Below are positions 5,647 through 41,630 of a DNA stretch of 64,000 bases, piece by piece (positions within the stretch are counted from its first letter, which is position 1; each line of letters begins with the position of its first letter). The stretch is from Bacteroidaceae bacterium (GTDB lineage Bacteria; Bacteroidota; Bacteroidia; Bacteroidales; Bacteroidaceae): NCBI GenBank assembly GCA_024401225.1, contig JAKSLM010000008.1, positions 24,623 to 88,622 on the forward strand, given 5' to 3'. The notes under the pieces are model-generated. The model was given only the letters and a program-made list of their open reading frames with translations. It ran no database searches and was not told the DNA's origin. The position numbers were made by a program, and so were the translations under genes.

Positions 5647-5681
5647 TGTGATGTTTGTTTTAACAACTCTTTCTTGAGGCT

Positions 5682-7793: not shown

Positions 7794-7832
7794 ATACCTG
7801 TTGTGTTAAACTTCTTCTTTGCGTAGCTACAT

Positions 7833-10211
7833 TTATTGGATTACTACTGGTTGACTGGTTGTAGTGGTAACTGTCTTCCAATCAACAACGGTAGCTGTGA
7901 TACTTTCAATCTTAGACTTGCTAAGCACAAGGTTGTAAACATACTTTGTGCCAGGCTCCCATCTTCCTATAGTTGTATCACTACTTCCTGTTATTGTTAC
8001 TGGCAGAATACTTAAATCCTTAATCTCGTAAACATTACCATCGGAAAGGACTATCTTAATACCAACTTTGTCATTAGCATTGTCACCTCGACTCAAAGAT
8101 TGAGGAACAGTACGCCATGTAAATTTGGTATCAGACCTTGTGATTTCTTGACTTGACGTTATATCATCCCAGCCATTTACGAGACCTATACCAATCATAA
8201 GGTTTGCCTTATTAGCATAGTTGAGTAAGGATACGGTCGCATTTGTCAAATCCACATTATCGGCATCATTCCCATCATCCGTAGTTGTTGAGAGGTTAAT
8301 CTCAAGGTCGGTCATCATATGGAACTGGGTGATGTGGATGGTAGACTTAGTTGGACCTATAGCAGGATAGAGGTAATCGTCGTGGTTATAACCATTAGTT
8401 GCATTATACGTAATCTCATGAGTACTTTCGGAATGTTTTTCCTTAAAAGGAGCACCCCAGATGTAGTCATTATTACCAGTATCTGTATTATTAATTGCAC
8501 CACCAATCATAGTGAGGTAATTACTCTCACTATCGCCATCTTTGGTCAACTCCTGTATTGGCGAAACTGTTCGGAAATGATAGTAAGTGCTATTACTTGG
8601 CCAGTACCAACCCGTATTCTGAACTCCATTTCCCTTAGCAAGGTCAAAGTACTGTCCTGAGGTATTACTATAACCCTTCTCTACTCCACTAAGGCCAGCT
8701 GTCGTAGTCGAAGACTTAAACAAACGGGATGCCGCTGGTGACTCTACACTACTAGTACCAGCAGACGTTTCCATAGTAATTGTTAATGGGAGGGCATTGT
8801 CTGGATTAGCAGACGCTGTCACAGTCTTCCAATCTACAATCGAAGCAGTAATCTTATCTATAGCAGTCTTACCTACAGTAAGAGTAAATTCATAGTTGAT
8901 GCCAGCCTTGAGCTTTGTACCATCTGTTAGGTATTCTTCCTTAACATTACCAGTTGGATTATTATAACTATCCACACTCTGATTGTCAGTATTAGCCTTT
9001 ATAGCAGCTAACAAATCCTGCTTTGAAAGTTTGTACTCATTGCCATCAATAGTGAATACCATTGCTGTCTTGCTGGCAGCATCACTATCTCCGTTGAGGT
9101 CATTACCAGGGATGACAAATGCCATGAGTGTATAGTATGCATCACCTGTTGCAGTTGCATTGCAGATGGTTGTCCATTCGCCTGACTCTGGGGCATCTGA
9201 CCATGTACCTTTTTCCAGATCAAGGTATCCTTTCTTATTGAAACCTTGCATCTTGATGTTTGTATCAGTAGCGAATTTAAAGCTAGATACCAGAGGACTC
9301 ACAAAACCATTTCCCGGCTTGATAAGAACAGTAATCAGCGACATAGCACGATGAAATTCAATAACGCCGCTATCGAATTTGCCAGTTTCCTTATTGCTGA
9401 ACTTTAAGACATTGCCGCCTGTGATATTATTGCTATAGCATACATCATCCTTGTAGAGGACAGAAAGGAAGGTCTGCGTGCCATAACTTGCGCTGTGATC
9501 ACCAATAGTCCACTTTATCTTGTTACCGCTACCATCTTCAGCACCGATAGTATAACTTGAAGGGACACCAGACTTCCAAGTCTTAGGATCCGTAGTATCG
9601 ATCTCCTTCGTATTGCTTGCAATACCATCAATCTTCTGATTCCAAGGAGCTCCAAAAGGCAACACAGTTCCATTGATACAGAAACCGTATATACTCAACT
9701 TAGACTTGCGAGCATGAGCATCATCCCAATAGCGGGTAATACCATCCTTTGAATTTGATTCTATAGGATTTTTATTAACGGTTTCATTTGCAGGATTTAG
9801 ATAACCTTCTCCAGTGGTACCATCTTCCTTCTTGAATGTCTGCTTGACTACTTTTGTATCTTCATTGAAGCTGATTGTCGAATATGTAGGAGGAGTTGTT
9901 ACATTTTTTGGAGGAGTTCCACTACCATTTGCTAATCCATAGGTAACCGTATATTTCTTATCACTTGAATTATCCGCATTTTCACTCACCATCAACAGAT
10001 GCAGACGAGTGTCGTTTTCGAATGCAGTTACCTTTCCCTTACCATCTATGACAACAGCACGGGTGGAAGGTGCATTATCTCCAACCTTCAACTCAATTGG
10101 AGTCTTGTCAGCATCTGGTACGATAGGATTCAACACATCCTGATCGCTACATGCTGCTAATGCAGCACATAGCGAGAGGAAGAGCGTTGTATATTTCAAT
10201 TTATAAGTCAT
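7833..10211 (-). CDS. Two-domain fimbrillin-family lipoprotein
   Basis: The 792-residue product begins MTYKLKYTTLFLSLC with lipobox CAALAAC at about residue 21, then a TRAVV segment at about residue 51. Two fimbrillin domains follow. The first contains FHRAMSLITVLIKPGNGF and closes with GKTAIDKITASIVDWKTV near residue 450. The second contains HMMTDLEINLSTTTDD and closes with SKSKIESITATVVDWKTV near 775. Both domains have the segment RYWDDAHARKSKLSIYGF or its counterpart around WYWPSNSTYYHFR, which is also found in the next gene upstream. It is separated by 39 bp from the downstream two-domain fimbrillin and lies in the same operon. The second domain resembles that of the 857-residue paralogue more than that of the 703-residue one (read by eye). 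Confidence 0.85.
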   Translation of the reverse strand: MTYKLKYTTLFLSLCAALAACSDQDVLNPIVPDADKTPIELKVGDNAPSTRAVVIDGKGKVTAFENDTRLHLLMVSENADNSSDKKYTVTYGLANGSGTPPKNVTTPPTYSTISFNEDTKVVKQTFKKEDGTTGEGYLNPANETVNKNPIESNSKDGITRYWDDAHARKSKLSIYGFCINGTVLPFGAPWNQKIDGIASNTKEIDTTDPKTWKSGVPSSYTIGAEDGSGNKIKWTIGDHSASYGTQTFLSVLYKDDVCYSNNITGGNVLKFSNKETGKFDSGVIEFHRAMSLITVLIKPGNGFVSPLVSSFKFATDTNIKMQGFNKKGYLDLEKGTWSDAPESGEWTTICNATATGDAYYTLMAFVIPGNDLNGDSDAASKTAMVFTIDGNEYKLSKQDLLAAIKANTDNQSVDSYNNPTGNVKEEYLTDGTKLKAGINYEFTLTVGKTAIDKITASIVDWKTVTASANPDNALPLTITMETSAGTSSVESPAASRLFKSSTTTAGLSGVEKGYSNTSGQYFDLAKGNGVQNTGWYWPSNSTYYHFRTVSPIQELTKDGDSESNYLTMIGGAINNTDTGNNDYIWGAPFKEKHSESTHEITYNATNGYNHDDYLYPAIGPTKSTIHITQFHMMTDLEINLSTTTDDGNDADNVDLTNATVSLLNYANKANLMIGIGLVNGWDDITSSQEITRSDTKFTWRTVPQSLSRGDNANDKVGIKIVLSDGNVYEIKDLSILPVTITGSSDTTIGRWEPGTKYVYNLVLSKSKIESITATVVDWKTVTTTTSQPVVIQ

Positions 10212-30444: not shown

Positions 30445-31521
30445 ATGAAAGAAAGAAATCATGCCTTCGACCTCCTGTGCGGACTATGCATCTTACGCAT
30501 GTTGATGCTCCACAGCATTAGCCTGTGCGGCTTCAGGGGAGAGTTCTGGTTCGGGAAGATCATGGCGTGGACATTCTTCTTCATGTCGTTCTTTTTTTTC
30601 AAGGCGGGCTACTTCAACAAGACCGTAGCAGGCAACTCATGGACATATCTAAAAGACAAGTCGAAACGACTGCTCGTACCATACCTTGCTTGGGGACTGA
30701 TAGGCAGCATCATCTACTTCGGGTTCGTGTGGGGAGTGGGCGAGCACTTCGAAAAGACCGCCAGCCGACTGACCTGGGCACACGTGTATCGCCAGAGCCA
30801 CTTCTACGGCGATCCTCCATGCTGGTTTCTGGTATCATTCTTCATGACGTATGTCGTGGTCCACTTTGTGGAGAAAGGCCTTAACAAGCTAAGGACAATG
30901 CTCGAAGGGGCAGGATGGCAACAGTCGGCACGCACCATTCAGACGATGCGTATCGTGAGCATTGCCGCATGCCCGTTTGTCAGTTTTCTGCTTTGGAAAA
31001 ACAAGAATCCGATGTGGCTAAGCCTCAACAACGTCTTCATGGGAATATACTTTTTCTACCTGGGACGTTTGTGGCGATGGTTGCAAACCCGAGTTAGCAA
31101 ACAGGTCATTATTACACTTTCCGTGGCTCTGATTCTCTGCTTTATCACAGGAAACAAGCTGTGGCATGGTGAGTACGACATGAGTTTGAATAAATTTGTA
31201 CAAAATCCGTGGGGAGCAGGCATCAACACTACCTTTGCCCTGTGCGGCATATCCGGACTGCTGCTCTCGCTTCCTATAGGGCGAATACCCGTAGTGAACT
31301 ACATAGGACAACATTCGATGGTGTACTTCGTAGCCCACTATCCGCTCATCTATTTCTACAAGTTCACCCACCAAGCGTTCGGCCGGGCAATATGGGGACA
31401 TTGGGATGAATGGATCACGCTGGCAGTATTTATCATGGCAATATGCACATGGCTCGTGCCGCATGTGGAGAGTGTGCCTTGGCTGTCGGGCAGGTATAAA
31501 AAAGTCATAAATCAGTTATAA
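30445..31521 (+). CDS. Acyltransferase family 3 membrane protein
   Basis: The 358-residue integral membrane protein has about ten hydrophobic segments. N-terminal FDLLCGLCILRMLMLH contains the conserved Arg and His of acyltransferase-3 (fucose 4-O-acetylase-like) enzymes, which move acetyl or succinyl groups onto sugars. FFKAGYFNKTVAGNSW and KRLLVPYLAWGLIG also fit the family. It is the first gene of the glycan operon, with its start codon immediately after the promoter box. It is a close paralogue of the next gene. The acceptor sugar is unknown. Confidence 0.85.
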   Translation: MKERNHAFDLLCGLCILRMLMLHSISLCGFRGEFWFGKIMAWTFFFMSFFFFKAGYFNKTVAGNSWTYLKDKSKRLLVPYLAWGLIGSIIYFGFVWGVGEHFEKTASRLTWAHVYRQSHFYGDPPCWFLVSFFMTYVVVHFVEKGLNKLRTMLEGAGWQQSARTIQTMRIVSIAACPFVSFLLWKNKNPMWLSLNNVFMGIYFFYLGRLWRWLQTRVSKQVIITLSVALILCFITGNKLWHGEYDMSLNKFVQNPWGAGINTTFALCGISGLLLSLPIGRIPVVNYIGQHSMVYFVAHYPLIYFYKFTHQAFGRAIWGHWDEWITLAVFIMAICTWLVPHVESVPWLSGRYKKVINQL

Positions 31522-31594
31522 GTTGAAAAGGGGGAAATAAAAACTTTTCTTCATAATCAACAACTGAAACAACCAATAAAGAAAGGGTTACACA

Positions 31595-32623
31595 TTGAAA
31601 GAGAGAAACCATACATTCGACTTCCTCTGTGGAATATGCATCATACGAATGATCACGCTCCACACCATCACCTTCTGCGGCCACAAGCAGGATGAGGGAT
31701 GGGGTGTGGTAATGGCATGGTCGTTCTTCTTCATGTGTTTCTTCTTCTTCAAGGCAGGATATTTCAACAAGACCGTGAGCGGCAACTCACGCGAATACAT
31801 CAAGGACAAGGCAAAGCGACTGCTCATCCCGTACGTGGCATGGGGAACGATAGGATTCCTCATCTACGCATTCTACCTGCCATTTGAGATCGACCGCTAC
31901 CACCATCCTATAGAACCAATGGAGTGGAGCCACCTGTGGAGCACATCCTCGTTCTGGGGCAACGAACCGGTGTGGTTCCTGTTCACATTCTTCTCGGCAT
32001 ATGTACTTGTCCACTTCATGAAGAAGATACACATTGTCAAACCGATAAGCGTGTTCCAAACGGTATTGCTGCTCACCTTCCCATTCATCAGCTACTGGCT
32101 GTACACGAAGGGCAATCCATTGCCATTGAGCCTGAGCAACGTGTTCATGGGAGCATTCTTCTTCTACATGGGCCGAGGATGGCGTTGGTGTCTGGACCGC
32201 TTGTCACGCACCCAGGCGATGTACATCTGCTCGGCATTCATCATAGCCTTTATAGTCAGCAACATAGTGTGGCATGGAGAGTACGCAATGGCGACAAACC
32301 GATTTGATGGAAACGCGCTTGCAGCATTCTTCAACACCCTGATCATCCTGCTCGGACTGTCAGGACTGCTCATCAAGCTCCCTCTGCCACGCGTGCCGGT
32401 GATCAACTACATCGGCCAGCACTCGATGGTGTACTTCGTGGCCCACTATCCTATACTTCAGTTCTACCGATTCACCCACATCGTCTATGGCCGCAGTATC
32501 TACGGTCGCTGGGACGATTTCATCATACTCATGGTCTTTGTGTTCTGCCTCTGCACGTGGCTCGTGCCTTATGTGGAGAGCGTACCATGGCTGTCAGGAC
32601 GATTTAAAACCAAGCAACAATGA
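31595..32623 (+). CDS. Acyltransferase family 3 membrane protein (paralogue)
   Basis: The 342-residue membrane protein is paralogous to the preceding gene along most of its length (FDFLCGICIIRMITLH, FFKAGYFNKTVSGNS, KRLLIPYVAWGTIG, NYIGQHSMVYFVAHYP). The start is a TTG at 31595; it aligns with the ATG of the paralogue (both begin MKERNH), so TTG is the probable initiator. Tandem duplication followed by divergence would allow two different acylation positions on one glycan (inference). The stop overlaps the GT14 start by 4 bp. Confidence 0.83.
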   Translation: MKERNHTFDFLCGICIIRMITLHTITFCGHKQDEGWGVVMAWSFFFMCFFFFKAGYFNKTVSGNSREYIKDKAKRLLIPYVAWGTIGFLIYAFYLPFEIDRYHHPIEPMEWSHLWSTSSFWGNEPVWFLFTFFSAYVLVHFMKKIHIVKPISVFQTVLLLTFPFISYWLYTKGNPLPLSLSNVFMGAFFFYMGRGWRWCLDRLSRTQAMYICSAFIIAFIVSNIVWHGEYAMATNRFDGNALAAFFNTLIILLGLSGLLIKLPLPRVPVINYIGQHSMVYFVAHYPILQFYRFTHIVYGRSIYGRWDDFIILMVFVFCLCTWLVPYVESVPWLSGRFKTKQQ

Positions 32624-33522
32624 ACATAGCATATCTGATATCAGCACATACCGACGCTCCGCAACTGAAACGACTTGTTGAAGCATTGCACATGGATGCC
32701 CACTTCTTCATTCATATTGATGCCAAGTCGGACATCACTCCCTTCACATCAATCATCAAGGGCGACAACATCCATTTCATCAGCAAGCGATACGATGTGC
32801 GCTGGGGAACGATCATCGAGGTGTGGTATCAGATGCAGCTCATCAAGGCAGCAATCGACTATCCCCTGAGCTTCGACCGCATCTTCTTCCTGAGTGGAAT
32901 GGACTATCCGCTGTGGTCGAACGAACGAATCACGCAGTATCTGGAAGGCATAGGCGACAAGGAGATACTGATGGGAGTAGACATGACTCACCCTCAGACC
33001 TCAGGGCAGCAGCACGACCTCTACACCACCGCACGTCCATTCTTCAACATCTCCTTCCTTAGCAACAAGGCCAACGAGCGCCTGGGCATCCTCTCGCGCA
33101 GGATTCTGCGAGCTGTAGGCTACAGGAAGAGCCTTACGCTGCCCAACGGATGGACGCTCTACAAGGGATCGGCATGGTGGTGCATCAGCGAACCACTGGC
33201 ACAGCACATTCTGAGCGTGTTCCAGGACAACAAGCAAGTCACCCAATACTTCCGTAGCTCATTCGGATCGGCCGAGACCTTCATCCAGACCGCAGCGATG
33301 AACGATCCTGCATGGGCCGAGAGATGCATCATCGCAGAAGGACCATACACCACATTGGCCGACCTCACCCCACTCCACTTCATCGACTACGTGCCTGTGA
33401 TCAAGGTGATGGACGAGAGCGATTATAGCCGCCTGATGGAAAGCGGACGTATGTTTACCCGTAAACTCCTGAGCGGAAAGAGTGACAAACTCGTAGAAAT
33501 GATAGAGAATGGCAGACATTGA
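32620..33522 (+). CDS. GT14-type (core-2/I-branching) glycosyltransferase
   Basis: The 300-residue cytosolic enzyme begins MNIAYLISAHTDAPQLKRL, with FFIHIDAKSDITPF, FFLSGMDYPLWSNE, GWTLYKGSAWWCISE and FGSAETFIQTA. These are the landmarks of the Branch (PF02485) family, inverting GlcNAc or xylosyltransferases in eukaryotes; bacterial members add sugars to exported polysaccharides. It overlaps the neighbouring genes on both sides, 4 bp upstream and up to 14 bp downstream. Donor and acceptor are not known. Confidence 0.87.
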   Translation: MNIAYLISAHTDAPQLKRLVEALHMDAHFFIHIDAKSDITPFTSIIKGDNIHFISKRYDVRWGTIIEVWYQMQLIKAAIDYPLSFDRIFFLSGMDYPLWSNERITQYLEGIGDKEILMGVDMTHPQTSGQQHDLYTTARPFFNISFLSNKANERLGILSRRILRAVGYRKSLTLPNGWTLYKGSAWWCISEPLAQHILSVFQDNKQVTQYFRSSFGSAETFIQTAAMNDPAWAERCIIAEGPYTTLADLTPLHFIDYVPVIKVMDESDYSRLMESGRMFTRKLLSGKSDKLVEMIENGRH

Positions 33523-34612
33523 TAGCATATACAAGCCCTCCCCTCATGGAGGAGATGGAGGTGGTCATTCCCGTATGGAGTGGCTTGATGCCATGCGAGG
33601 ATTTACAATGATCCTTGTCGTTGCATACCATGTGGCTCAGATGGCTTTCGAACAGAATGAGAAGACATCCTGTTCGCTGCCTTTCCTTGTGCTGTTTCGT
33701 ATGCCGCTGTTCTTCTTCGTGTCCGGATTCCTCGCCTACAAGAGCAAATGGATATGGACTGCCGAATCGTTTATCCGTCTGACTTGGAAGAAGATCAAGG
33801 TGCAGGTGCTGCCTGCGTTCGTGTTCCTGTGCATACTGCTTGTGCTGAGGAGCAAACAGCCATTCGGCGATGCGCTGTTGAAGAACCTCCAACTGCCTAC
33901 AAAGGGCGGATACTGGTTTACCTGGGTACTCCTGCAGATGTTTATCATCTACTACATAGTGGCAGCATTGGCACAACGGCTGCGGAACTCCCACATCCCG
34001 ATATGGATACTGTGGGTGGTGTGCCTGGCAGCCTATCAGAGCCTGTACATGCCGAGTGCGCTGGGCAAATGGTACAAGAACGACTTCATGATGTATTCCA
34101 GCATGTACGAGACATTCAAGTTCATGCATTTCTTCGTGCTTGGCAACCTCGTGCATCGCTATTGGCATCAGGTACAGAGATTGTTCGACACGCGCTGGTT
34201 CTTCCCTATCGTGACCATCCTGGCATTCCTGTGCTGTGCCGACATATTCCGCTTGCATACGTTCAAGATGGAATGGGTGAACCTGCCTAAGACCCTGGCC
34301 ATGTACACCCTGATGCTGATAGTCATAATGGTGTTCCGCCACTATGCTGAGCATTTCACCTCACAGACTCGCACGGGCCGTTGCCTTCAGTACATCGGAG
34401 TGCGCACTCTCGACATCTACCTGCTGCACTTCCTCTTCCTGCCTAAGCTGCCGATGGTGGGCAAGTGGCTCAACGAGTACCATCCAAACTTCTGCATTGA
34501 TATCGTCTGCGCATTCAGCGTAGCAGCCGTGGTTATCGCATTCTGTCTGCTGACAAGCAACATACTAAGGACCAGTCCACTATTCAAGGAATACCTGTTT
34601 GGCAGAAAATAA
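33509..34612 (+). CDS. Acyltransferase family 3 membrane protein with repeat-encoded N-terminus
   Basis: The reading frame from 33509 encodes 367 residues. Residues 1-22 (with YKPSPHGGDGGG) come from a GC-rich palindromic repeat. The domain itself starts at Met23 (33575) with MEWLDAMRGFTMILVVAYHV, the typical acyltransferase-3 beginning. Either start is possible. The one at 33575 gives a normal N-terminus; the repeat upstream then offers purine-rich GGAGG that could act as a ribosome site. About ten membrane segments follow (FRMPLFFFVSGFLAYKS, IGVRTLDIYLLHFLF). It differs clearly from the first two acyltransferases of the operon. Confidence 0.83.
   Translation: MADIDSIYKPSPHGGDGGGHSRMEWLDAMRGFTMILVVAYHVAQMAFEQNEKTSCSLPFLVLFRMPLFFFVSGFLAYKSKWIWTAESFIRLTWKKIKVQVLPAFVFLCILLVLRSKQPFGDALLKNLQLPTKGGYWFTWVLLQMFIIYYIVAALAQRLRNSHIPIWILWVVCLAAYQSLYMPSALGKWYKNDFMMYSSMYETFKFMHFFVLGNLVHRYWHQVQRLFDTRWFFPIVTILAFLCCADIFRLHTFKMEWVNLPKTLAMYTLMLIVIMVFRHYAEHFTSQTRTGRCLQYIGVRTLDIYLLHFLFLPKLPMVGKWLNEYHPNFCIDIVCAFSVAAVVIAFCLLTSNILRTSPLFKEYLFGRK
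33534..33564. repeat. GC-rich palindromic repeat at the N-terminus of an acyltransferase frame
   Basis: CCCTCCCCTCATGGAGGAGATGG belongs to the same family as the repeats at 39763-39800, 39870-39905, 43904-44054 and 62592-62650. In this frame it reads KPSPHGGDGGG, nearly identical to KPSPHGGAGGG at the start of the IspD-like protein. Confidence 0.75.
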
Positions 34613-34616
34613 GCTT

Positions 34617-35453
34617 ATGAACAACGAACTGATAAAGACCATACAATCGAAAGTAGACCAGCAACGGCTGAAGGACACCTTCTGCCCCGAGGGTTCGCTC
34701 CTGCGCCGCCAGCAAGAGCGCATGCTTGAGATGCTGCTCAGCTTTGATGCCATCTGCAAGAAGCACAACATACCCTACTGGCTGAGTTCAGGCACCATGC
34801 TGGGCTGCATACGTCATGGAGGATTCATACCGTGGGACGATGATCTCGATGTGGAGATGATGCGCGACGACTACCTGCGCTTCGAGCAGGTCATCATGGA
34901 CGAACTGCCTGACAGTATGGCTCTTCAGACCCACGATACCGACCCGAACTATTTCTTCTTCTACCCAAAACTGCGCGACAAGCGCAGCCTGCTGGAAGAG
35001 ACCAACAACTACGACAAGGTATTCAAGTACCGCGGCATCTACATCGACATCTTCCTGTTGGAGAAGAACCCATTGTGGACCCACAAGCTGTCGTGCAATA
35101 CGATAGGTCATGTGTACAAGATCATGAAGGATCCGCACCTAAATGTTGAGGCCAAGAACAATAAAGTGGCACGTTGGTACGATACTAATAATAAGGTAGT
35201 GTATCCTGTGCTGCGATTCATATCGCGCTTCTCATCAGGCCGACTGGTTCGGCACACGTTCGGCGTGCCTTACCCAAAGCCACGACATGTAACCGACCTG
35301 TTTCCGCTGGATAAGGCCCTGTTTGAGGGACATGAATTCCCCGTACCGCACGACTGGCACAACTACCTTCACCGCATGTTTGGCAACTATGAAGCGCTGC
35401 CGAACCTTGAAGAGCTTCATCCCCATGTAGGGAAGATAGAGTTTTATGATTAA
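34617..35453 (+). CDS. LicD-family phosphotransferase
   Basis: The 278-residue protein starts at the ATG at 34617; a TTG 18 bp upstream would overlap the previous gene. It carries the LicD signature YWLSSGTMLGCIRHGGFIPWDDDLDVEM, with the Asp cluster at about residues 77-81. LicD proteins transfer phosphocholine or a related alcohol phosphate from a CDP donor onto cell-surface glycans. The C-terminal portion (PKPRHVTDLFPL, HDWHNYLHRMFGNY) is also typical. The CDP donor would be supplied by the cytidylyltransferase domain encoded next, only 28 bp downstream. Confidence 0.9.
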   Translation: MNNELIKTIQSKVDQQRLKDTFCPEGSLLRRQQERMLEMLLSFDAICKKHNIPYWLSSGTMLGCIRHGGFIPWDDDLDVEMMRDDYLRFEQVIMDELPDSMALQTHDTDPNYFFFYPKLRDKRSLLEETNNYDKVFKYRGIYIDIFLLEKNPLWTHKLSCNTIGHVYKIMKDPHLNVEAKNNKVARWYDTNNKVVYPVLRFISRFSSGRLVRHTFGVPYPKPRHVTDLFPLDKALFEGHEFPVPHDWHNYLHRMFGNYEALPNLEELHPHVGKIEFYD

Positions 35454-35481
35454 CGAAAAAAGAAAGGAAACTGATTAAGAT

Positions 35482-37293
35482 ATGCAAGCCATAATACTTG
35501 CTGCCGGAATGGGCAGACGACTTGGAGAGTACACGAAGGACAATACGAAATGTATGGTGCCTGTCAATGGTGTGCGACTCATAGACAGAGTGATCGGTCA
35601 ATTGTCAAAGCTCCACCTCACCCGACTCGTACTCGTAGTCGGATACGAGGGCCAGAAGCTCATCGACTACATTGGCCATCGCTACGATGATGTGCTGAAG
35701 ATTGAGTTCATCAACAATCCTATATACGACAAGACCAACAACATCTACTCGTTGGCACTTGCCAAGAAGGAACTGTGCGAGGACGACACCATCCTCCTCG
35801 AGAGCGATCTCATCTTCGAGGACAGGATGCTGGAACTCCTTGTCAACCATCCGGATCGCGACCTTGCCCTCGTAGCCAAATACGAGACCTGGATGGACGG
35901 CACCATGGTAAGCATCGATGCCAACCGCAACATCGTCAACTTCATACCGAAGGAGGCGTTCCGCTACGAGGATGTCGACCTGTACTACAAGACGGTCAAT
36001 ATATACAAGTTCTCGAAGGAGTTCTCCACCGACTTCTATGTGCCGTTCCTCGATGCCTACAGCAAGGTGATGGGCAACAACGAGTACTACGAGCAGGTGC
36101 TTCGAGTACTCCTGCACCTTCACAAGTCCACCCTCAAGGCACTTCCTATCACCGACGAGAAGTGGTATGAGATCGATGATGTGCAGGACCTCGACATTGC
36201 ATCCGCAATCTTCAGCGACGGCACAGTCAAGTACCACGAGTACCACAAGCGCTATGGCGGCTACTGGCGATTCCCTCAGATGCTCGACTACTGCTATCTG
36301 GTCAATCCGTTCTTCCCAAGCAAGAGGATGAAGGACGAGCTGAGGGCAAACTTCGATGTGCTGCTCGAGAACTACCCTTCAGGCATGCTGGTCAACTCAT
36401 TGCTTGCCGGCAAGTACTTCGGCATCAAGCAGGACTACGTAGTGGTAGGCAACGGAGCTGCCGAGCTGATCAAGATCGTGATGGAGGAGCACACAGGCGA
36501 CAAGGTAGGTATCATATACCCAACATTCGACGAATATCCTAACCGCCTCCGCAAGGAGCAGATCGTCCCATTCATCTCGCAGAAGGAGAACTTCGACTAC
36601 ACAGCCGACGACCTCATGGAGCACTACAAGGACACAGGCATCTCACTCATGCTCCTCATCAATCCCGACAACCCTTCGGGCCACTTCATGCCTAAGGCCG
36701 ATGTGCTGCGCCTGGCTGCATGGTGTGAGGACAATGGCATAAAGCTTGTGGTCGATGAGAGCTTCGTTGACTTCACCGACGACTTTGAGCACAACAGCCT
36801 GCTCCACAACGACCTGCTTGAGCAGCACCCTACCATGATGGTGATGAAGAGCATATCCAAGTCGTACGGCGTCCCAGGACTTCGCCTTGGCGTGTTTGTC
36901 ACAGCCAACACCGACCTCATTGCACGCATGAAGAAGGAGGTCAGCATCTGGAACATCAATTCGTTTGCAGAGTTCTACCTCCAGATCTATGGCAAATACG
37001 AGAACGAGTACAAGAAGGCATGCTGCCAGTTCATCGAGGAGCGCAACACGTTCTATGCCGAACTGCAGACCATACCTTTCCTCCGTGTCATCCCTTCCCA
37101 GGCCAACTACTTCCTGTGCGAAGTGATCGACAAGTACACATCGACCGAACTTACTCAGCGACTCATTGAGAACAATGTGCTGATCAGCAACTGCGGACTG
37201 AAGAACAATATGGCTGGCAAACAGCTCATTCGCCTTGCCGTACGCAGTCGCCAGGACAACGCACGACTCATATCCATACTACGTACATTATAA
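35482..37293 (+). CDS. Fusion: cytidylyltransferase + PLP aminotransferase/decarboxylase
   Basis: The 603-residue fusion has two enzymatic halves. Residues about 1-235 are a sugar/alcohol-phosphate nucleotidyltransferase: AIILAAGMGRRLGEYT with TKCMVPVNG, LLESDLIFED and a DEKWYEIDDVQDL segment, as in LicC-type CTP:phosphocholine enzymes. Residues about 265-603 are a class I/II PLP enzyme of the HisC/CobD type: NPDNPSG near 394, VVDESFVDF near 423 and the PLP lysine in SISKSYG at about 460. Known relatives include fusions that activate 2-aminoethylphosphonate, and CobD-like serine-phosphate decarboxylases that make phosphoethanolamine. The fusion may therefore make an amino-alcohol phosphate and turn it into its CDP derivative for LicD. 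No PEP mutase gene is in the window. The exact substrate is inference. Confidence 0.88.
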   Translation: MQAIILAAGMGRRLGEYTKDNTKCMVPVNGVRLIDRVIGQLSKLHLTRLVLVVGYEGQKLIDYIGHRYDDVLKIEFINNPIYDKTNNIYSLALAKKELCEDDTILLESDLIFEDRMLELLVNHPDRDLALVAKYETWMDGTMVSIDANRNIVNFIPKEAFRYEDVDLYYKTVNIYKFSKEFSTDFYVPFLDAYSKVMGNNEYYEQVLRVLLHLHKSTLKALPITDEKWYEIDDVQDLDIASAIFSDGTVKYHEYHKRYGGYWRFPQMLDYCYLVNPFFPSKRMKDELRANFDVLLENYPSGMLVNSLLAGKYFGIKQDYVVVGNGAAELIKIVMEEHTGDKVGIIYPTFDEYPNRLRKEQIVPFISQKENFDYTADDLMEHYKDTGISLMLLINPDNPSGHFMPKADVLRLAAWCEDNGIKLVVDESFVDFTDDFEHNSLLHNDLLEQHPTMMVMKSISKSYGVPGLRLGVFVTANTDLIARMKKEVSIWNINSFAEFYLQIYGKYENEYKKACCQFIEERNTFYAELQTIPFLRVIPSQANYFLCEVIDKYTSTELTQRLIENNVLISNCGLKNNMAGKQLIRLAVRSRQDNARLISILRTL

Positions 37294-37306
37294 GACTTAG
37301 CAGACG

Positions 37307-38332
37307 ATGAAGACAATTTGTATATGTGGAGGTGGTTCGTTAGGGCACGTCATAGCAGGATGGCTTGCTGCCAAGGGAAAGGCCCGTGTCAACATACTGA
37401 CCGGTCGTCCCAAGTTGTGGCAGCCATGCATCGACATCCATACCCCCGACGGCAACACGCTTCACGGCAAATTGGGCAAGGTGAGCAGCCATGCCGCAGA
37501 GGTGATACCCGATAGCGACATCGTACTCCTATGCCTTCCTGGCTATCTCATCGCCAGCGAGTTGGAAGCCATCAGACCTCACTTGGCAGCCGACACTCTC
37601 GTGGGTGGTGTATTCTCTTCCACGGGCTTCTTCTTCGAGGCACACAGGATCCTTCCATCGTCCCAGCCTCTGTGGGGCTTTCAGCGAGTGCCGTTCATAG
37701 CACGCGTTGCCGAATACGGTTCGTCAGCCAATCTGCTTGGCTTCAAGGACAGCCTTAGTGTTGCCATCGAGAACGTGTCCGACACGGTGCAATCATCCAT
37801 GGTGTCATGGCTGAACGATGCGTTCGAGTGCCCGATCCACCTATTGGGCCATTACCTTGAGGCAAGTCTCACCAACAGCAACCCCCTGCTTCACACATCC
37901 CGTCTCTACACCCTGTTTGGCGGCGACAACGAAGGCAAGGCATACGACAGGATGATATACTTCTACGAGGAGTGGACCGATGAGGCAGCCGACATGCTGA
38001 TCAGGATGGACGAGGAATTCTTCCGCCTGCTTGGCGCATTGCCCGCATCAGAAGGCTTCCTGCCCACCATCCTGGACTACTACGAGAGCCACGATGCCCA
38101 GTCGCTTGCAGCCAAGTTGCGCTCCATCAAGGGCTTCAAGGGCATCGCCTCGCCTATGGTTTCCACATCCGAGGGATGGATGCCGGACTTCGGCAGCCGC
38201 TACTTCACCGAGGACTTCCCACATGGCCTGAAGTACATCTGGCTATTGGCTCACGAACATGGCATCGATGTCCCTAACATCGACAAGGTATATGCATGGG
38301 GCATGGACAAGTTGAACAAAGGAGGACGATAG
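37307..38332 (+). CDS. Octopine/nopaline dehydrogenase-family protein
   Basis: The 341-residue cytosolic protein has an N-terminal NAD(P) Rossmann motif CICGGGSLGHVIAGWLAAKG. The C-terminal Octopine_DH-type domain contains LGHYLEASLTNSNPLLHTSRLY, with the His of the catalytic region. Opine dehydrogenases reductively join the amine of an amino compound to a 2-oxo acid. It lies 13 bp after the cytidylyltransferase-aminotransferase fusion and 2 bp before the flippase, so it is almost certainly co-expressed with them. An opine-type modification of an amino-alcohol substituent on the glycan is a reasonable guess, not shown. Confidence 0.87.
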   Translation: MKTICICGGGSLGHVIAGWLAAKGKARVNILTGRPKLWQPCIDIHTPDGNTLHGKLGKVSSHAAEVIPDSDIVLLCLPGYLIASELEAIRPHLAADTLVGGVFSSTGFFFEAHRILPSSQPLWGFQRVPFIARVAEYGSSANLLGFKDSLSVAIENVSDTVQSSMVSWLNDAFECPIHLLGHYLEASLTNSNPLLHTSRLYTLFGGDNEGKAYDRMIYFYEEWTDEAADMLIRMDEEFFRLLGALPASEGFLPTILDYYESHDAQSLAAKLRSIKGFKGIASPMVSTSEGWMPDFGSRYFTEDFPHGLKYIWLLAHEHGIDVPNIDKVYAWGMDKLNKGGR

Positions 38333-38334
38333 AT

Positions 38335-39786
38335 ATGGCAGCAACACTAAAGGAAAAGGCAGCCAAGGGCTTTCTCTGGGCAGCTATCAACAATGGCGCC
38401 ACCCAACTCATGGGAGCCATATTCGGGGTGGTTCTGAGCCGCATCCTCGACAAGGGCGACTACGGACTCATCAACATGCTGCTTGTATTCTCAGCTGTGG
38501 CAACAGCGCTGCAGGATAGCGGATTTGTCATAGCGCTTATCAACAAGAAGGATGCCACCCACAGGGACTACAACTCCGTGTTCTGGTTCAACATACTCGT
38601 CAGCGCATCCATCTATGCCATCCTCTTCGCCTGTGCTCCGCTCATAGCATCCTACTATGACGAACCTATACTGGAAAACCTGTCGCGATATTTCTTCCTC
38701 TGCTTCTTCATCGCATCGTTCTCCATCGTACCGAGATCATTGCTGCTCAAGCAGTTGAAGCAGAAGCAACTGGCAGTCATAGGACTGGCAGCATTGGTCA
38801 TCTCCAACACCATCGGACTGCTCATGGCATTCAACGACATGGCATATTGGAGCCTTGCCACGCAGACCATCACCTTCAATCTCACCATCAGCATCCTGAG
38901 CTGGTACTACTCCGGGTGGAGACCAAGCCTGCGCATCTCGTTCCAACCCGTCAGGGAGATGTTCGGATTCTCAGCCAAGATGCTCATCACGTACATCTTC
39001 AACAGCATCAACAACAACATCTTCTCGCTGGTACTTGGCAAACTCTACACCAAGAATGAGGTGGGCGAATACAGTCAGGCAAACAAGTGGAACCTGATGG
39101 GGGCAAACACCATCTCCGGCATGGTGAACGGTGTGGCACAACCTACATTCGTACAGGTAGGCGACGACAGGGAAAGGCTGTGCCGCGCACTCTCCAAGAT
39201 GCTCCGTCTCACGTGCTTCATCACCTTCCCAGCCATGTTCGGAATGTCGCTCATTGCGAAGGAATTTATCGTCATCACCGTGACCGACAAGTGGTTGGCA
39301 AGCGCCCATCTCATGCAGATACTTTGCATCGAGGGCGCCTTCATCCCCATCGCCACCCTCTATTACAACATGATCATCTCACGGGGTAAGTCCAACATCT
39401 ACATGTGGAATGTCATCCTGCAGGGATGCACCATCCTTGCCGCCATCACAGGCGTACACTACCTCGGAGGCGGTATCAACGAGATGATCTGGGCACACGT
39501 CGCCATCATCATAGCATGGGTAGGCATCTGGCACATCTTCGTGTGGAGGGAGATCAGGTTCAGCTTCATGCAGGGCCTGAAGGACATCATCCCATTCATG
39601 GCAATAGCGGGCCTTACCATGATAGCCACCCACTTCCTTACGCTCACGATTGACAACCTGTATCTGCTGCTTGCATCACGCATCCTCATTGCAGCCACAT
39701 TGTACCTCTCCATCCTCTGGGTGCTTGGTGCCAACATCCTGAAGGAATGTCTGAGTTATCTAAGGCCCCACCCAACCTCCCCATAA
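38335..39786 (+). CDS. Wzx-like oligosaccharide flippase
   Basis: The 483-residue inner-membrane protein starts at the ATG at 38335 behind AGGAGG; the longer frame overlaps the preceding gene. KAAKGFLWAAINNGATQLMG, LSRILDKGDYGLINMLL and roughly twelve to fourteen hydrophobic segments are typical of the polysaccharide-synthase/MVF superfamily that moves lipid-linked oligosaccharides across the membrane. It implies that the glycan made by this operon is exported. The final residues RPHPTSP and the stop codon are provided by a GC-rich palindromic repeat (39763-39800). The normal end is probably close to LSYL. Confidence 0.9.
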   Translation: MAATLKEKAAKGFLWAAINNGATQLMGAIFGVVLSRILDKGDYGLINMLLVFSAVATALQDSGFVIALINKKDATHRDYNSVFWFNILVSASIYAILFACAPLIASYYDEPILENLSRYFFLCFFIASFSIVPRSLLLKQLKQKQLAVIGLAALVISNTIGLLMAFNDMAYWSLATQTITFNLTISILSWYYSGWRPSLRISFQPVREMFGFSAKMLITYIFNSINNNIFSLVLGKLYTKNEVGEYSQANKWNLMGANTISGMVNGVAQPTFVQVGDDRERLCRALSKMLRLTCFITFPAMFGMSLIAKEFIVITVTDKWLASAHLMQILCIEGAFIPIATLYYNMIISRGKSNIYMWNVILQGCTILAAITGVHYLGGGINEMIWAHVAIIIAWVGIWHIFVWREIRFSFMQGLKDIIPFMAIAGLTMIATHFLTLTIDNLYLLLASRILIAATLYLSILWVLGANILKECLSYLRPHPTSP

Positions 39787-39905
39787 GGGAGGGGCTTGGA
39801 TATACAGAAGGTAAACGAATCCTTATACCTTAACATAAAACGAAAACCTGCATGTCAAATAGTAACCACAAACCCTCCCCTCATGGGGGAGCTGGAGGGG
39901 GCCCT
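39763..39905. repeat. Palindromic repeat pair spanning the flippase 3' end and IspD-like 5' end
   Basis: The left arm (39763-39800, GGCCCCACCCAACCTCCCC...) and right arm (39870-39905, CCCTCCCC...GGAGGGGGCCC) are inverted relatives separated by about 70 bp of AT-rich DNA. The left arm encodes the last residues of the flippase. The right arm encodes residues 7-17 of the next protein (KPSPHGGAGGG). The same arm-spacer-arm plan occurs at 43904-44054. Confidence 0.75.
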
Positions 39906-40592
39906 AAATGCTCCCGCAACATAGCCATAGTATTAGCAGGAGGTTCCGGCCGCCGTATGGGTACAGACGTGCCCAAGCAATACCTCGAGATCCGAGGACG
40001 AATGGTCATCGAATACGCCATCGATGCCTTCGATCGCAATGCCAATATCGATGAAGTGGCAGTAGTGGTAAGTGCCGACAATGTTGACACCATGAGGGAC
40101 ATCGCTGCGCACAACAACTGGAAGAAACTGAGGCACATACTCGTAGGTGGCAAGGAGCGCTACGACTCCAGCCTCTCTGCCATCAACGCCTACCGGGACG
40201 AAGACTGCAACATCATCTTCCACGATGCAGCACGCCCACTTGTCACCCAGCGCATCATAGACGATGTGGTGGAGAAGCTCCGCACCTGCCAGGCCGTGGG
40301 AGTAGCACAACCATCGGTCGATACCATACTCGTCATCGAGGATGGATGCATCAAGAGCGTACCCGACCGCTCCACCCTCCGTCGTGCCCAGACCCCTCAA
40401 GGATTCGACATCTCCATCATCAGGAATGCATACGAGATAGGACTCCAGGACCCCGACTTCAAGGCTACCGACGACTGCGGCATCGTGCTCCGCTACCGTC
40501 CCGACATCCCCATCCACATCGTCGATGGCGACGAGGCATGCATGAAGATCACCTACAAGTCCGACTGCCAAATCCTCGAAACCTTCCTCTGA
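39852..40592 (+). CDS. IspD/TarI-family cytidylyltransferase
   Basis: The 246-residue protein has the CTP-binding motif IAIVLAGGSGRRMGTDVPKQ from about residue 24, FHDAARPLV, RAQTPQGFD and a C-terminal TDDCGIVLRYRP with EACMKITYKSD. These are shared by IspD (methylerythritol-P) and TarI/Bcs1-type ribitol-5-phosphate cytidylyltransferases. In a LicD-containing polysaccharide operon a polyol-phosphate substrate is as likely as the isoprenoid one. No ATG, GTG or TTG lies between the repeat and the CTP motif, so translation must start at 39852 and read through the palindromic repeat. Confidence 0.85.
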   Translation: MSNSNHKPSPHGGAGGGPKCSRNIAIVLAGGSGRRMGTDVPKQYLEIRGRMVIEYAIDAFDRNANIDEVAVVVSADNVDTMRDIAAHNNWKKLRHILVGGKERYDSSLSAINAYRDEDCNIIFHDAARPLVTQRIIDDVVEKLRTCQAVGVAQPSVDTILVIEDGCIKSVPDRSTLRRAQTPQGFDISIIRNAYEIGLQDPDFKATDDCGIVLRYRPDIPIHIVDGDEACMKITYKSDCQILETFL

Positions 40593-40634: not shown

Positions 40635-41630
40635 ATGATCTCCCCCGTTGCAATGTTTGTCTACAACCGCGTGGACAACACCCAAAAGACCATTGAGCAC
40701 CTACTTCGCAACACACTTGCTGCGGAAACCGACCTATTTGTCTTCAGCGATGGAGGCAAGGATGAGAAATCGTGGAAGGCTGTAAACGAAGTGCGTGCCC
40801 ATCTTCATAAGGTACAGAAGGATATAGAGGCCAATGGCGCCCTGAAGAGCATGACCATCATCGAGCGCCCGGAGAACATCTACCTCGAGCGCAACATCAC
40901 CGAAGGCATAGCCCAAATATTTGAGAATCACGACCGCATCATAGTCCTTGAGGACGACATCTGCACATCGCCCTACTACCTCCAGTACATGAACGATGCC
41001 TTCGACCTGTACAAGGACGAGCCACGCGTCATGCACGTAGCAGGATTCACCAATCTCGACCTCTCCACTCTCACCTCTAACCTCTCACCTCTAACCTTTA
41101 ACCTCTCACCTCTCAACTCTAACCTCTCCACTCTCCCCTTCTACTTCACCCCTCACATGTCGGGTTGGGGATGGGGTACGTGGCGCGACCGCTGGCAGAA
41201 GCATTTCGTCCATTATCAAACCCGCGAAGCAGCCCTTGAAGGCATGACAGCTGCCGATCAGGACGCCATCCAGTATGGAGGTGTATTCCCATGTCTGAAG
41301 AGCCTTGACAAGCGCCCTATCCCATGGGACATCTGTTGGGAGCTCGCCATCTACAAGGCAGGAGGACTATGTCTCACACCAGGCAGGACAATGGTGCGCA
41401 ACATAGGCCTCAAGAACGGCACCCACTTCAAGTCGTTCGACATCCTGCAGCGCTACGAGTTTGACCGTGAACCATCGCAAGAGCCACTTGCGCTGACCAA
41501 AATCCCTAATCCCCAGAAGGACGAAGCCATCGAACGCCTCTTCGCCGAAGCCATCACCGACTGGGGCATCCGCTACACCCCACTTGGCAAATTCATACGC
41601 TTCTTCTACAAGTTATTTACCGGAAAATAA
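40635..41630 (+). CDS. GT2-like glycosyltransferase interrupted by 7-bp repeats
   Basis: The 331-residue protein resembles GT2/GNT-I-type sugar transferases: PVAMFVYNRVDNTQKTIEHL, LFVFSDGGKD, IIVLEDDICTSPYYLQYMN (DxD-like EDD), MSGWGWGTWRDRWQ and WDICWELAIYKAGG. It is the last gene of the operon. Residues about 143-168 (LSTLTSNLSPLTFNLSPL and on) are encoded by eleven heptanucleotide units at 41061-41137 and replace what should be a short loop before GWGWGTW. Copy-number change could switch the gene off. Donor sugar is unknown. Confidence 0.85.
   Translation: MISPVAMFVYNRVDNTQKTIEHLLRNTLAAETDLFVFSDGGKDEKSWKAVNEVRAHLHKVQKDIEANGALKSMTIIERPENIYLERNITEGIAQIFENHDRIIVLEDDICTSPYYLQYMNDAFDLYKDEPRVMHVAGFTNLDLSTLTSNLSPLTFNLSPLNSNLSTLPFYFTPHMSGWGWGTWRDRWQKHFVHYQTREAALEGMTAADQDAIQYGGVFPCLKSLDKRPIPWDICWELAIYKAGGLCLTPGRTMVRNIGLKNGTHFKSFDILQRYEFDREPSQEPLALTKIPNPQKDEAIERLFAEAITDWGIRYTPLGKFIRFFYKLFTGK
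41061..41137. repeat. Eleven-unit heptanucleotide repeat within a glycosyltransferase gene
   Basis: Units CTCTCCA, CTCTCAC, CTCTAAC, CTCTCAC, CTCTAAC, CTTTAAC, CTCTCAC, CTCTCAA, CTCTAAC, CTCTCCA and CTCTCCC are contiguous, 77 bp in all. The length is not a multiple of three, and adding or losing one unit would shift the reading frame downstream. Units are degenerate, which would lower the slippage rate. Confidence 0.9.

Follow-up and report, generated by a model that had tools for sequence, protein, structure and literature searches.

A cluster at positions 34617-39786 of the window, the 64,000-nucleotide stretch analysed here from the genome of a gut-type Bacteroidales bacterium, probably makes an opine-type decoration and attaches it to a glycan through the steps proposed below. 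It comprises genes for a LicD-family phosphotransferase, a fusion of a LicC-like cytidylyltransferase with a CobD-like PLP enzyme (Fus), an octopine-dehydrogenase-family enzyme (OpDH) and a flippase, with an IspD-family gene standing next (Table 1). All five neighbouring genes named in the preliminary description were recovered by profile search, and the coordinates bear out that OpDH starts 13 bp after the Fus stop codon. Judging from family membership, the CobD-like half of Fus would decarboxylate O-phospho-L-serine to ethanolamine phosphate, which the LicC-like half would convert to CDP-ethanolamine; OpDH would join a 2-oxo acid, most likely pyruvate, to the primary amine, with NAD(P)H reducing the imine, so that an N-(1-carboxyalkyl)aminoethyl phosphate or the corresponding CDP derivative would result, and LicD would pass the modified group from CDP to a sugar of the glycan. 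This core chain, outlined in the preliminary description, has gained strong comparative support from gene linkage, from OpDH-LicD fusions, from repeated replacement between OpDH and unrelated OCD/mu-crystallin enzymes (OCD), and from OpDH or OCD genes beside 2-aminoethylphosphonate (AEP)-type genes, while its parts stay proposals.

In relatives, the N-alkylation slot would be filled by OpDH, by OCD or left empty, and the aminoethyl source would be Fus or, in a few, the AEP pathway. More tentatively, Bacteroidales may possess an interchangeable two-slot system, combining a CobD-like fusion or a phosphonate pathway with an opine dehydrogenase, an OCD enzyme or nothing, which equips surface glycans, the general protein O-glycan among them, with N-(carboxyalkyl)aminoethyl phosphates or phosphonates. 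Through such a system a zwitterionic group would become anionic and amino-acid-like, with surface charge differing between related strains.

Table 1. Features of the cluster and its surroundings (positions in the window)
Feature	Position	Strand	Evidence or remark
Upstream block, acyltransferase_3 and Core-2/I-Branching genes	30445..34612	+	
Acyltransferase_3	30445-31521	+	Pfam
Acyltransferase_3	31595-32623	+	51% identity to the 30445-31521 gene
Core-2/I-Branching enzyme	32620-33522	+	Pfam
Acyltransferase_3	33509-34612	+	Pfam
LicD-family phosphotransferase	34617..35453	+	PF04991 8.6e-41, 141 bits against cut-off 22.6
Fus, whole fusion	35482-37293	+	cytidylyltransferase N-terminal, PLP domain C-terminal
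Fus N-terminal LicC/PntC-like cytidylyltransferase, residues about 1-240	35482..36201	+	PF12804 1.2e-11
Fus C-terminal CobD-like PLP enzyme, residues about 265-603	36274..37293	+	TIGR01140 184 bits
OpDH, opine-dehydrogenase family	37307..38332	+	Octopine_DH PF02317 8.4e-31
Wzx (MOP) flippase, like the Bacteroidota O-glycosylation type	38329..39786	+	NF058658 661 bits
IspD-family cytidylyltransferase	39852..40592	+	PF01128, 2.4e-52
Candidate glycosyltransferase	40635..41630	+	weak GNT-I match, under Pfam cut-off

The surroundings recur in a cluster of another genome (G001, locus L116), where homologues of the last three genes of the upstream block, in the same order, precede Fus-OpDH-LicD, and where a homologue of the candidate glycosyltransferase (71%) is also found.

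Association of Fus with two reductase families

A sample of 301 genomes of the family was searched with E-value limits of 1e-80 for Fus and 1e-20 for OpDH and OCD. Fus was found in 72, and the search for its co-occurrence with the octopine-dehydrogenase gene, suggested in the preliminary description, returned OpDH in 47 of these, with OCD in 17, neither in 8 and both in none. One or other reductase is present in 64/72 Fus genomes and in 8/229 others (Fisher p = 4e-47 with genomes treated as independent, which phylogenetically they are not), and hence the association is not a matter of chance. The reductase gene lies downstream of Fus on the same strand and at most 1 kb away in 44 of 47 cases for OpDH and 12 of 17 for OCD, the OCD gene being on a contig other than that of Fus in 5/17.

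OpDH and OCD are mutually exclusive in this slot (p = 8e-11) and belong to different Pfam families, PF02317 and PF02423 (OCD/mu-crystallin), respectively. Both occur in 7 of the 14 genera with Fus, and on a quick tree of Fus the OCD label changes 12 times, at least 10 of these changes being forced by starred branches. A sponge tauropine dehydrogenase is assigned in two reports to the OCD family (PMC3840593, PMC4113996). That two imine-reductase families have repeatedly taken each other's place in the gene order is a strong natural argument for identity of the reaction.

The fusion protein and its likely product

The N-terminal half of Fus is of LicC/PntC type, having the nucleotidyltransferase motifs and being related to both LicC (PDB 1jyk, 9e-11) and PntC-AEPT (6pd1, 6e-9); L6-A7-A8-G9-M10-G11, K23 and E107-S108-D109 are invariant among 27 sequences. 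In the PLP half, K460 and W490-N491-x-N493 are likewise invariant (n=27), the Trp-Asn-x-Asn motif standing against Tyr-Asn-Val-Ser in HisC (8bj1). This half misses the curated equivalog cut-offs of both the CobD model (TIGR01140, cut-off 290.55) and the HisC model (TIGR01141, 146 bits, cut-off 276.55), for which reason a reading as plain CobD or HisC was rejected, and because it scores below the former we call it CobD-like. Its best PDB match is 6oux, followed by CobD 1lc5, and the molecule name of 6oux is identical to that of SMUL_1544, of norcobamide (ethanolamine-linker) synthesis. According to one report, Cj1436 decarboxylates serine phosphate in the course of capsule synthesis (PMC12409886). 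Serine-phosphate and threonine-phosphate decarboxylases are not told apart by sequence.

The PLP half might instead yield another amino alcohol phosphate, for instance 1-aminopropan-2-ol phosphate, with threonine phosphate as its source, or serinol phosphate, by way of transamination, leaving the remaining chain unchanged. Two points speak for such a product: the curated models closest to the PLP half are those of CobD and HisC, and according to the same report Cj1437, encoded in a capsule locus, produces serinol phosphate (PMC12409886). Nevertheless we regard it as unlikely: the best PDB match points to cobamides of the ethanolamine type, the same OpDH family is elsewhere paired with a pathway for the two-carbon AEP amine (L131, L132), and no threonine kinase was noticed by eye in the cluster.

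Distant full-length fusions resembling Fus are carried on plasmids of Fusobacterium, Erwinia, Gloeothece, Priestia and Pseudonocardia (best 10 of 571 records); the full-length matches listed are annotated as PLP-dependent aminotransferase-fold enzymes, one also as a sugar phosphate nucleotidyltransferase, and OpDH or OCD was neither annotated nor matched beside them in the five regions examined. An unfused trio of cytidylyltransferase, HisC-like enzyme and LicD occurs elsewhere in the genus, and was left out of the Fus counts because its PLP enzyme is nearer to HisC.

Phosphonate chemistry

AEP activation had been raised in the preliminary description only as an alternative, with the remark that PEP mutase is missing; a search of the source genome (84% complete) agrees, finding no PEP mutase (TIGR02320), and two near-complete genomes with Fus, G026 and G029, likewise lack PepM. 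A match to PF13714 under the cut-off fell on a 313-aa ORF, which by eye we take to be PanB. Across the sample PepM is no commoner with Fus than without it (12/72 against 37/229, p = 1), so phosphonate activation is disfavoured as a rule and was rejected as the general role of Fus.

For particular loci the matter is more nuanced. Of the 80 loci fetched, which are the best 80 of 331, three have PepM alongside Fus within the stretch (L060, L067 and L082); all three have Ppd and lack any AEPT match, with an iron alcohol dehydrogenase in its place in L060 and L067 and a DegT-type aminotransferase in L082, and for this reason Fus may handle phosphonates there. Fus would then make AEP or phosphonoalanine with its PLP half and a CMP-phosphonate with its LicC half, for OpDH to modify. 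Precedents include the known PntC-AEPT fusions (6pd1) and a set of PepM, PntC and a HisC-like enzyme in Bradyrhizobium, and in both L131 and L132 OpDH stands after a complete AEP operon. Even so, that Fus works on phosphonates is quite improbable, and the reading is retained as a rival for a few loci: in addition to the distribution of PepM, the PLP half matches PF00155 (class I/II, CobD-like) and not the class V AEPT type, and the phosphonate genes of L060 and L067 include a cytidylyltransferase-PepM fusion of their own.

OpDH or OCD occurs without Fus in 8 genomes, with PepM in 5 and not in 3, and in three of the 8 its gene adjoins AEP-type genes: in L132 the OpDH gene comes immediately after PntC-PepM-Ppd-AEPT, as it does in L131, where the AEPT frame is in two ORFs, and OCD adjoins PepM in L135.

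Proposed reductive coupling and transfer by LicD

OpDH belongs to the opine (octopine/nopaline) dehydrogenase family (PF02317, 107 bits against a cut-off of 30), matching octopine dehydrogenase structures 3iqd/3c7a at 1e-30. Its H196, R298 and D303, invariant among 27 sequences, align with H212, R324 and D329 of octopine dehydrogenase. Glu142 of the latter, given in one report as a guanidinium contact (PMC2924402), aligns with invariant Gln126, and Thr143 with invariant Arg127; R199 is also invariant in the set, yet common to other opine dehydrogenases. Its family, its catalytic residues and the way in which OCD enzymes take its place lead us to propose that OpDH joins the aminoethyl amine to a 2-oxo acid in a reductive step. 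When plasmids were searched with OpDH, 46 records were returned, with a top identity of 31.9% among the matches listed; two Proteus records are among the matches, and the neighbourhood of a Burkholderia plasmid match (L152) has no Fus or LicD annotation.

LicD is proposed to move the modified aminoethyl phosphate from the CDP donor onto a sugar. Among ten genus loci fetched, seven encode OpDH and LicD as one protein of ~600 aa, which Pfam confirmed in L113, L119 and L112, and the LicD part is homologous to the LicD of the window. Some loci have Fus followed directly by LicD without a reductase (L127, L058), and no LicD match lies beside Fus in several of the 8 Fus genomes with neither reductase (L123, L124, L126, L128), so LicD is not the sole possible transferase. 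That OpDH makes a free opine or other metabolite and merely shares the operon, with LicD transferring plain phosphoethanolamine, accords with Fus-LicD pairs such as that of L127 and with the 8/72 Fus genomes having neither reductase, but is very unlikely in view of the single OpDH-LicD proteins, the mutual exclusion of OpDH and OCD and the linkage of OpDH to AEP operons.

The possible acceptor glycan

The flippase scores just under the NF058658 cut-off of 720, its genus relative in L088 reaching 643 and the Wzx of a capsule-type locus of B. cellulosilyticus 275. In relatives, metG lies within 600 bp of Fus in 15/79 loci; in the window it is 8.2 kb from wzx, the pattern of the Bacteroidota O-glycosylation locus (LFG) being metG then wzx, with two conserved glycosyltransferases at the end. 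The flippase type and the metG neighbourhood in relatives make the outer portion of the Bacteroidota protein O-glycan a plausible acceptor here; the glycan may be this one here and a capsule elsewhere. Phosphorylated O-glycans have been described with phosphoglycerol in P. gingivalis (PMC8729774) and with a phospho-hexitol in P. intermedia (PMC10897501), whereas a phospho-amino-alcohol opine is proposed here.

Relation to known systems

The cluster shares with LicC/LicD phosphocholine decoration the CTP-dependent activation of a phospho-amine and its LicD-type transfer to a glycan, and with PntC-AEPT the joining of a cytidylyltransferase to a PLP enzyme, although the PLP half of Fus is of a different class; to both it adds an imine reductase, fused to LicD in some relatives. 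Model scores and PDB matches place the PLP half closest to O-phospho-amino-acid decarboxylases of the CobD and SMUL_1544 type, and the Campylobacter jejuni capsule enzyme Cj1436, likened here without sequence comparison, resembles Fus in the proposed product, ethanolamine phosphate. Unlike these decarboxylases, the PLP half of Fus is joined to a cytidylyltransferase, and its product would go to CDP activation and not into an amide or the linker of a cobamide. The chemistry proposed for OpDH, in which an amine and a 2-oxo acid are coupled reductively, is that of octopine and tauropine dehydrogenases and of OCD/mu-crystallin imine reductases (SbnB, sponge tauropine dehydrogenase). The catalytic His-Asp pair of octopine dehydrogenases and their Arg that senses NADH are retained in OpDH, but the guanidinium-binding Glu is replaced, with an invariant Arg adjacent, and the genomic context points to surface glycan decoration. 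The cluster resembles the LFG in its O-glycosylation-type Wzx, albeit under the model cut-off, and metG lies near Fus in some relatives.

Most of what is known of opine chemistry concerns invertebrate muscle, crown galls and metal-binding opines. If the proposed pathway is correct, gut and rumen bacteria would use this chemistry to decorate their cell surface, and surface groups of the phosphoethanolamine type would be predicted to undergo a charge switch; the proposal also gives a directly testable function to a fusion protein present in 72/301 sampled genomes of the family. Among the titles listed by the literature searches none describes a Fus-OpDH-LicD pathway, and N-(1-carboxyethyl)phosphoethanolamine in Proteus O-antigens, named as precedent in the preliminary description, was not confirmed in the literature searched. 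Related groups are reported, namely N-acetyl-phosphoethanolamine in O38 (PMC9912281), phosphoethanolamine in O27 (from the title of a work cited in PMC10609480) and, in that last source, O-antigens bearing N-(1-carboxyethyl) amino acids.

The adjoining IspD-family gene

The preliminary description counted a second cytidylyltransferase, of IspD/TarI type, in the chain. An IspD-family gene is indeed present, but since it is the only one found in the source genome (84% complete), its membership of the pathway is not established; it may be a housekeeping gene of the MEP pathway or serve a polyol-phosphate (TarI-like) role. In the same-genus siblings G026, G029 and G030, IspD is present and is not reached by the window protein at 1e-20. 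Relatives near 50% identity are unfused, fused to LicD or fused to an SDR: that of G122, unfused and one gene beyond Fus-OCD, and that of G058, fused to LicD, are each the only IspD over the cut-off in their genomes, and that of L131 is fused to an SDR.

The gene block and its setting

The window lies on contig 84 of a Bacteroidales genome (G000, assembly 84% complete), and ORF calls and family matches agree with the five-gene content laid out in the preliminary description, including a LicC-like cytidylyltransferase fused to a CobD-like PLP domain (Fus) and an octopine-dehydrogenase-family enzyme (OpDH). A glycosyltransferase-like gene lies 3′ of the block, with acyltransferase and branching-enzyme genes 5′ of it, and a similar block in genome G001 (L116) reads acyltransferase, branching enzyme, acyltransferase, Fus, OpDH, LicD, glycosyltransferase. 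Elsewhere the IspD domain is fused to LicD (L103, 8412-9941; L144, 3598-5133) or to a short-chain dehydrogenase (L131, 13326-14696), and the LicD fusion of G058 is that genome's sole IspD over the cut-off; both kinds of fusion are suggestive of CDP-polyol routes.

Genes of the block in the window
Gene	Position	Basis
LicD	34617-35453	family match
Fus	35482-37293	cytidylyltransferase is the N-terminal half
OpDH, octopine-dehydrogenase family	37307-38332	family match
Flippase	38329-39786	family match
IspD-family gene	39852-40592	family match

Two reductase families beside the fusion

Scanning genome contigs yielded 331 Fus relatives; the best 80 of the 331 were fetched with their loci (L033-L112), and among the matches listed from these 80 every one is from Bacteroidota. 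In these 80, OpDH lies at most 152 bp downstream of Fus in 53, and a member of the unrelated OCD/mu-crystallin imine-reductase family (OCD, verified with Pfam in seven loci) within 95 bp in 15; one locus has both (L035), nine have neither, and in two the contig ends too early. Four of the 16 OCD genes of this set are on the opposite strand. Some locus comparisons extend over 90 loci, namely these 80, the window's own and nine from its genus, some of them on identical contigs.

In a less biased set of 301 genomes, drawn from 30 of the family's genera, Fus is present in 72 (split or partial matches in four: G199, G274, G284 and G244), OpDH in 51 and OCD in 21. Conserved co-occurrence of Fus with the octopine-dehydrogenase gene in other genomes, which the preliminary description had put forward as a check, is borne out: 47 of the 72 Fus genomes carry OpDH, and in 44 of the 47 it lies at most 1 kb downstream on the same strand, with a small ORF between in one (G036), the remaining three being 1.4 and 2.3 kb away (G265, G102) or on a separate contig. 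Another 17 Fus genomes carry OCD, adjacent to Fus in 12 and on a separate contig in five, eight carry neither, and no genome has OpDH and OCD together. Taking genomes as independent, the association of either reductase with Fus has a Fisher p of 4e-47, and the mutual exclusion of the two within Fus genomes a p of 8e-11. In L141 (8355-9827), an amino-acid permease gene, which might import the amine or an amino acid, stands between Fus and a PntC-like (phosphonate cytidylyltransferase) gene, followed by OpDH.

The exchange of partners has been repeated. A tree of 81 Fus proteins, built by a quick method with SH-aLRT support alone and with the both-reductase locus given its own label, requires 12 changes of the OCD label, of which at least 10 are forced by starred branches, and 16 of the OpDH label, at least 11 of them so forced. 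Closely related Fus proteins can have different partners (OCD in L043, OpDH in L045), and both alternatives are present in seven of the 14 Fus-bearing genera. That one slot is repeatedly filled by two families, each reducing an imine beside a carboxylate, argues that they perform the same reaction. The tauropine dehydrogenases of molluscs are members of the octopine dehydrogenase family. A sponge tauropine dehydrogenase is assigned to the OCD family in two papers (PMC3840593, PMC4113996). A plasmid of Gloeothece verrucosa (L149, 6977-10439) has a SAM-dependent methyltransferase gene between a Fus homologue (33%) and LicD; the methyltransferase occupies the reductase slot, which suggests an N-methylated, phosphocholine-type decoration.

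Family placement of the two halves of the fusion

The PLP half of Fus is matched best by the CobD model (184 bits) and next by HisC (146 bits), both under the equivalog cut-offs, and its nearest solved structures, far above the next HisC entries, are 6oux, 1lc5 (CobD) and 3ftb, the last filed as a histidinol-phosphate aminotransferase. We take 6oux to be SMUL_1544, presumably an L-serine-O-phosphate decarboxylase. The molecule name of 6oux, "Threonine phosphate decarboxylase-like enzyme", is identical to the SMUL_1544 product name in PMC7755780; titles of cited references connect SMUL_1544 with norcobamides, in which ethanolamine is the linker (PMC6759758). K460 and W490-N491-x-N493 are kept in all 27 aligned Fus proteins (the window's and 26 from the 80 loci, hand-picked for diversity), and the latter position reads Trp-Asn/Ser-x-Asn in 6oux, 1lc5 and 3ftb and Tyr-Asn-Val-Ser in HisC 8bj1. 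The N-terminal half resembles LicC (1jyk) and PntC (6pd1). From the families of its two halves, Fus is predicted to make CDP-ethanolamine from phosphoserine. Three genomes of the genus (L013, L016, L023) have, at another locus, an unfused cytidylyltransferase with a HisC-like PLP enzyme and LicD, and no opine enzyme in these short loci.

Active-site residues of OpDH

His212, Arg324 and Asp329 of octopine dehydrogenase align pairwise with OpDH H196, R298 and D303, which are invariant in 27 of 27 aligned sequences, two of them from phosphonate clusters. In octopine dehydrogenase we take the Asp of the dyad to be number 329 and Thr143 to be an active-site residue. By the same pairwise mapping (OpDH numbering), Thr143 becomes an invariant Arg127, Glu142 an invariant Gln126 and Trp278 Thr254. 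According to PMC2924402, the enzyme has a His-Asp dyad; Arg324 senses NADH, His212 sits at the carboxylate of arginine, and the guanidinium group is contacted by Glu142 and Trp278. At positions 126-127 two distant opine dehydrogenases (L090, L138) carry Gly-Leu, and R199 is common to them and OpDH; K270, like the Gln-Arg pair, is peculiar to the OpDH group. An active-site Arg is also described for metagenomic opine dehydrogenases preferring negatively charged amino acids (PMC10787698). The predicted acceptor of the 2-oxo acid would be ethanolamine phosphate or CDP-ethanolamine.

The phosphonate connection

The alternative is that the fusion serves 2-aminoethylphosphonate (AEP), the product of a pathway through PEP mutase (PepM). 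The preliminary description had seen no PEP mutase in the window, and none was found in the organism's own assembly (84% complete) either. PepM (TIGR02320) occurs in 49 of the 301 genomes, 12 of 72 with Fus and 37 of 229 without (p = 1), and within the genus in 6 of 10 and 11 of 35, respectively (p = 0.14); Fus therefore does not depend on PepM.

The reductases do meet the AEP pathway in some genomes where Fus is missing. OpDH or OCD is present in eight genomes that lack Fus; five of these also have PepM, against 32 of the remaining 221 without Fus (p = 0.003). L132 carries a PntC-PepM-Ppd-AEPT run whose AEP transaminase (AEPT) gene overlaps at its end with OpDH, and in this run PepM, Ppd and AEPT score above curated cut-offs and the PntC-like protein above no model's; L131 has the same arrangement with AEPT split over two ORFs, and in L135 OCD adjoins PepM close to a contig end, with little more of the pathway visible. 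PepM lies elsewhere in the genome in G032 and G120. The three of the eight that lack PepM are an OpDH fragment at a contig end (G069), an OCD at a contig start (G314) and G116, whose OpDH is 26% identical and in a different context. In our reading, one set of N-alkylating enzymes would serve a 2-aminoethyl amine supplied by either Fus or the AEP pathway, and such sharing would indicate ethanolamine phosphate as the Fus product.

The division is not a sharp one, however: PepM and Ppd accompany Fus in three of the 80 loci (L060, L067, L082), with no AEPT match. Beside Fus-OpDH, L060 and L067 (5692-12897) carry phosphonate genes in which PepM is fused to a cytidylyltransferase. These genes include an iron alcohol dehydrogenase, for which the phosphonate-linked PsrA is the best or second-best model, far under cut-off; such a set would fit a hydroxyethylphosphonate rather than an amine. 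L082 (9914-18005; apparently one contig with L139) has, likewise beside Fus-OpDH, a radical-SAM/cytidylyltransferase-like protein and a DegT-type aminotransferase. All three possibly add unusual phosphonates to the same glycan. A row of genes on a Bradyrhizobium plasmid (L151, 4753-8737) may constitute a phosphonolipid route: PepM, a phosphocholine-cytidylyltransferase-family gene, a CDP-alcohol phosphatidyltransferase and a HisC-like transaminase.

LicD and the proposed transfer step

OpDH and LicD form a single protein of about 600 residues in seven of the ten genus loci fetched (L113, L114, L118-L122) and in five of 79 contig loci (the 80 minus L049): L071, L077, L088, L094 and L112, of which L071, L094 and L112 apparently share their contigs with L119, L121 and L118, respectively. 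A Pfam search recovers both domains in L113, L119 and L112, and the L114 locus has no Fus within the 18 kb fetched. A LicD homologue resembling that of the window (E ≤ 1e-8) is present somewhere in 54 of the 79 loci, a count that misses more distant LicD such as that of L058. Fus is followed by LicD with no reductase in L058 and L127, the latter from a genome (G103) with PepM on another contig. In L123, L124, L126 and L128, which come from Fus genomes that lack both reductases, Fus has no LicD match beside it, and L128 has a CDP-alcohol phosphatidyltransferase gene near its split Fus (5669-7848). On the Priestia plasmid pBM700 (L148, 8838-9446), such a gene stands directly 3′ of Fus, LicD's place in other loci.

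LicD would then transfer the product to a glycan. The sequences themselves show which genes are present, how they are linked and fused, the exchange of reductases, the catalytic residues and the lack of PepM in this assembly; the substrate of the PLP half, CDP-ethanolamine, the choice of 2-oxo acid, the stage at which OpDH acts, the LicD transfer and the acceptor are predictions. Every enzyme family here is already known, and the LicC/LicD and PntC systems supply the template; what is added is an opine step, by OpDH or OCD, predicted from the genes. Within the limited set of papers searched, we found no description of such a step between activation and transfer, by either family.

Which glycan would be decorated

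Phosphodiester precedents exist in the O-glycans of P. gingivalis, with phosphoglycerol (PMC8729774), and P. intermedia, with a phospho-hexitol (PMC10897501). Against the model for O-glycosylation flippases (cut-off 720), the window's flippase reaches 661 and a genus relative 643. O-glycan loci begin with metG, then wzx, according to PMC12871550; metG lies at most 600 bp from Fus in 15 of 79 loci, and the window's metG is 8.2 kb from wzx. A Bacteroidota O-glycan is a plausible acceptor in the organism itself, with chances we put at about even. In 29 of 79 loci there is a flippase with 38% or more identity to that of the window. The flippase of the B. cellulosilyticus locus (L036) scores 275 with the O-glycosylation model, and its upstream genes, named by eye, are taken for UpxY and UpxZ, which probably places that module in a capsule locus.
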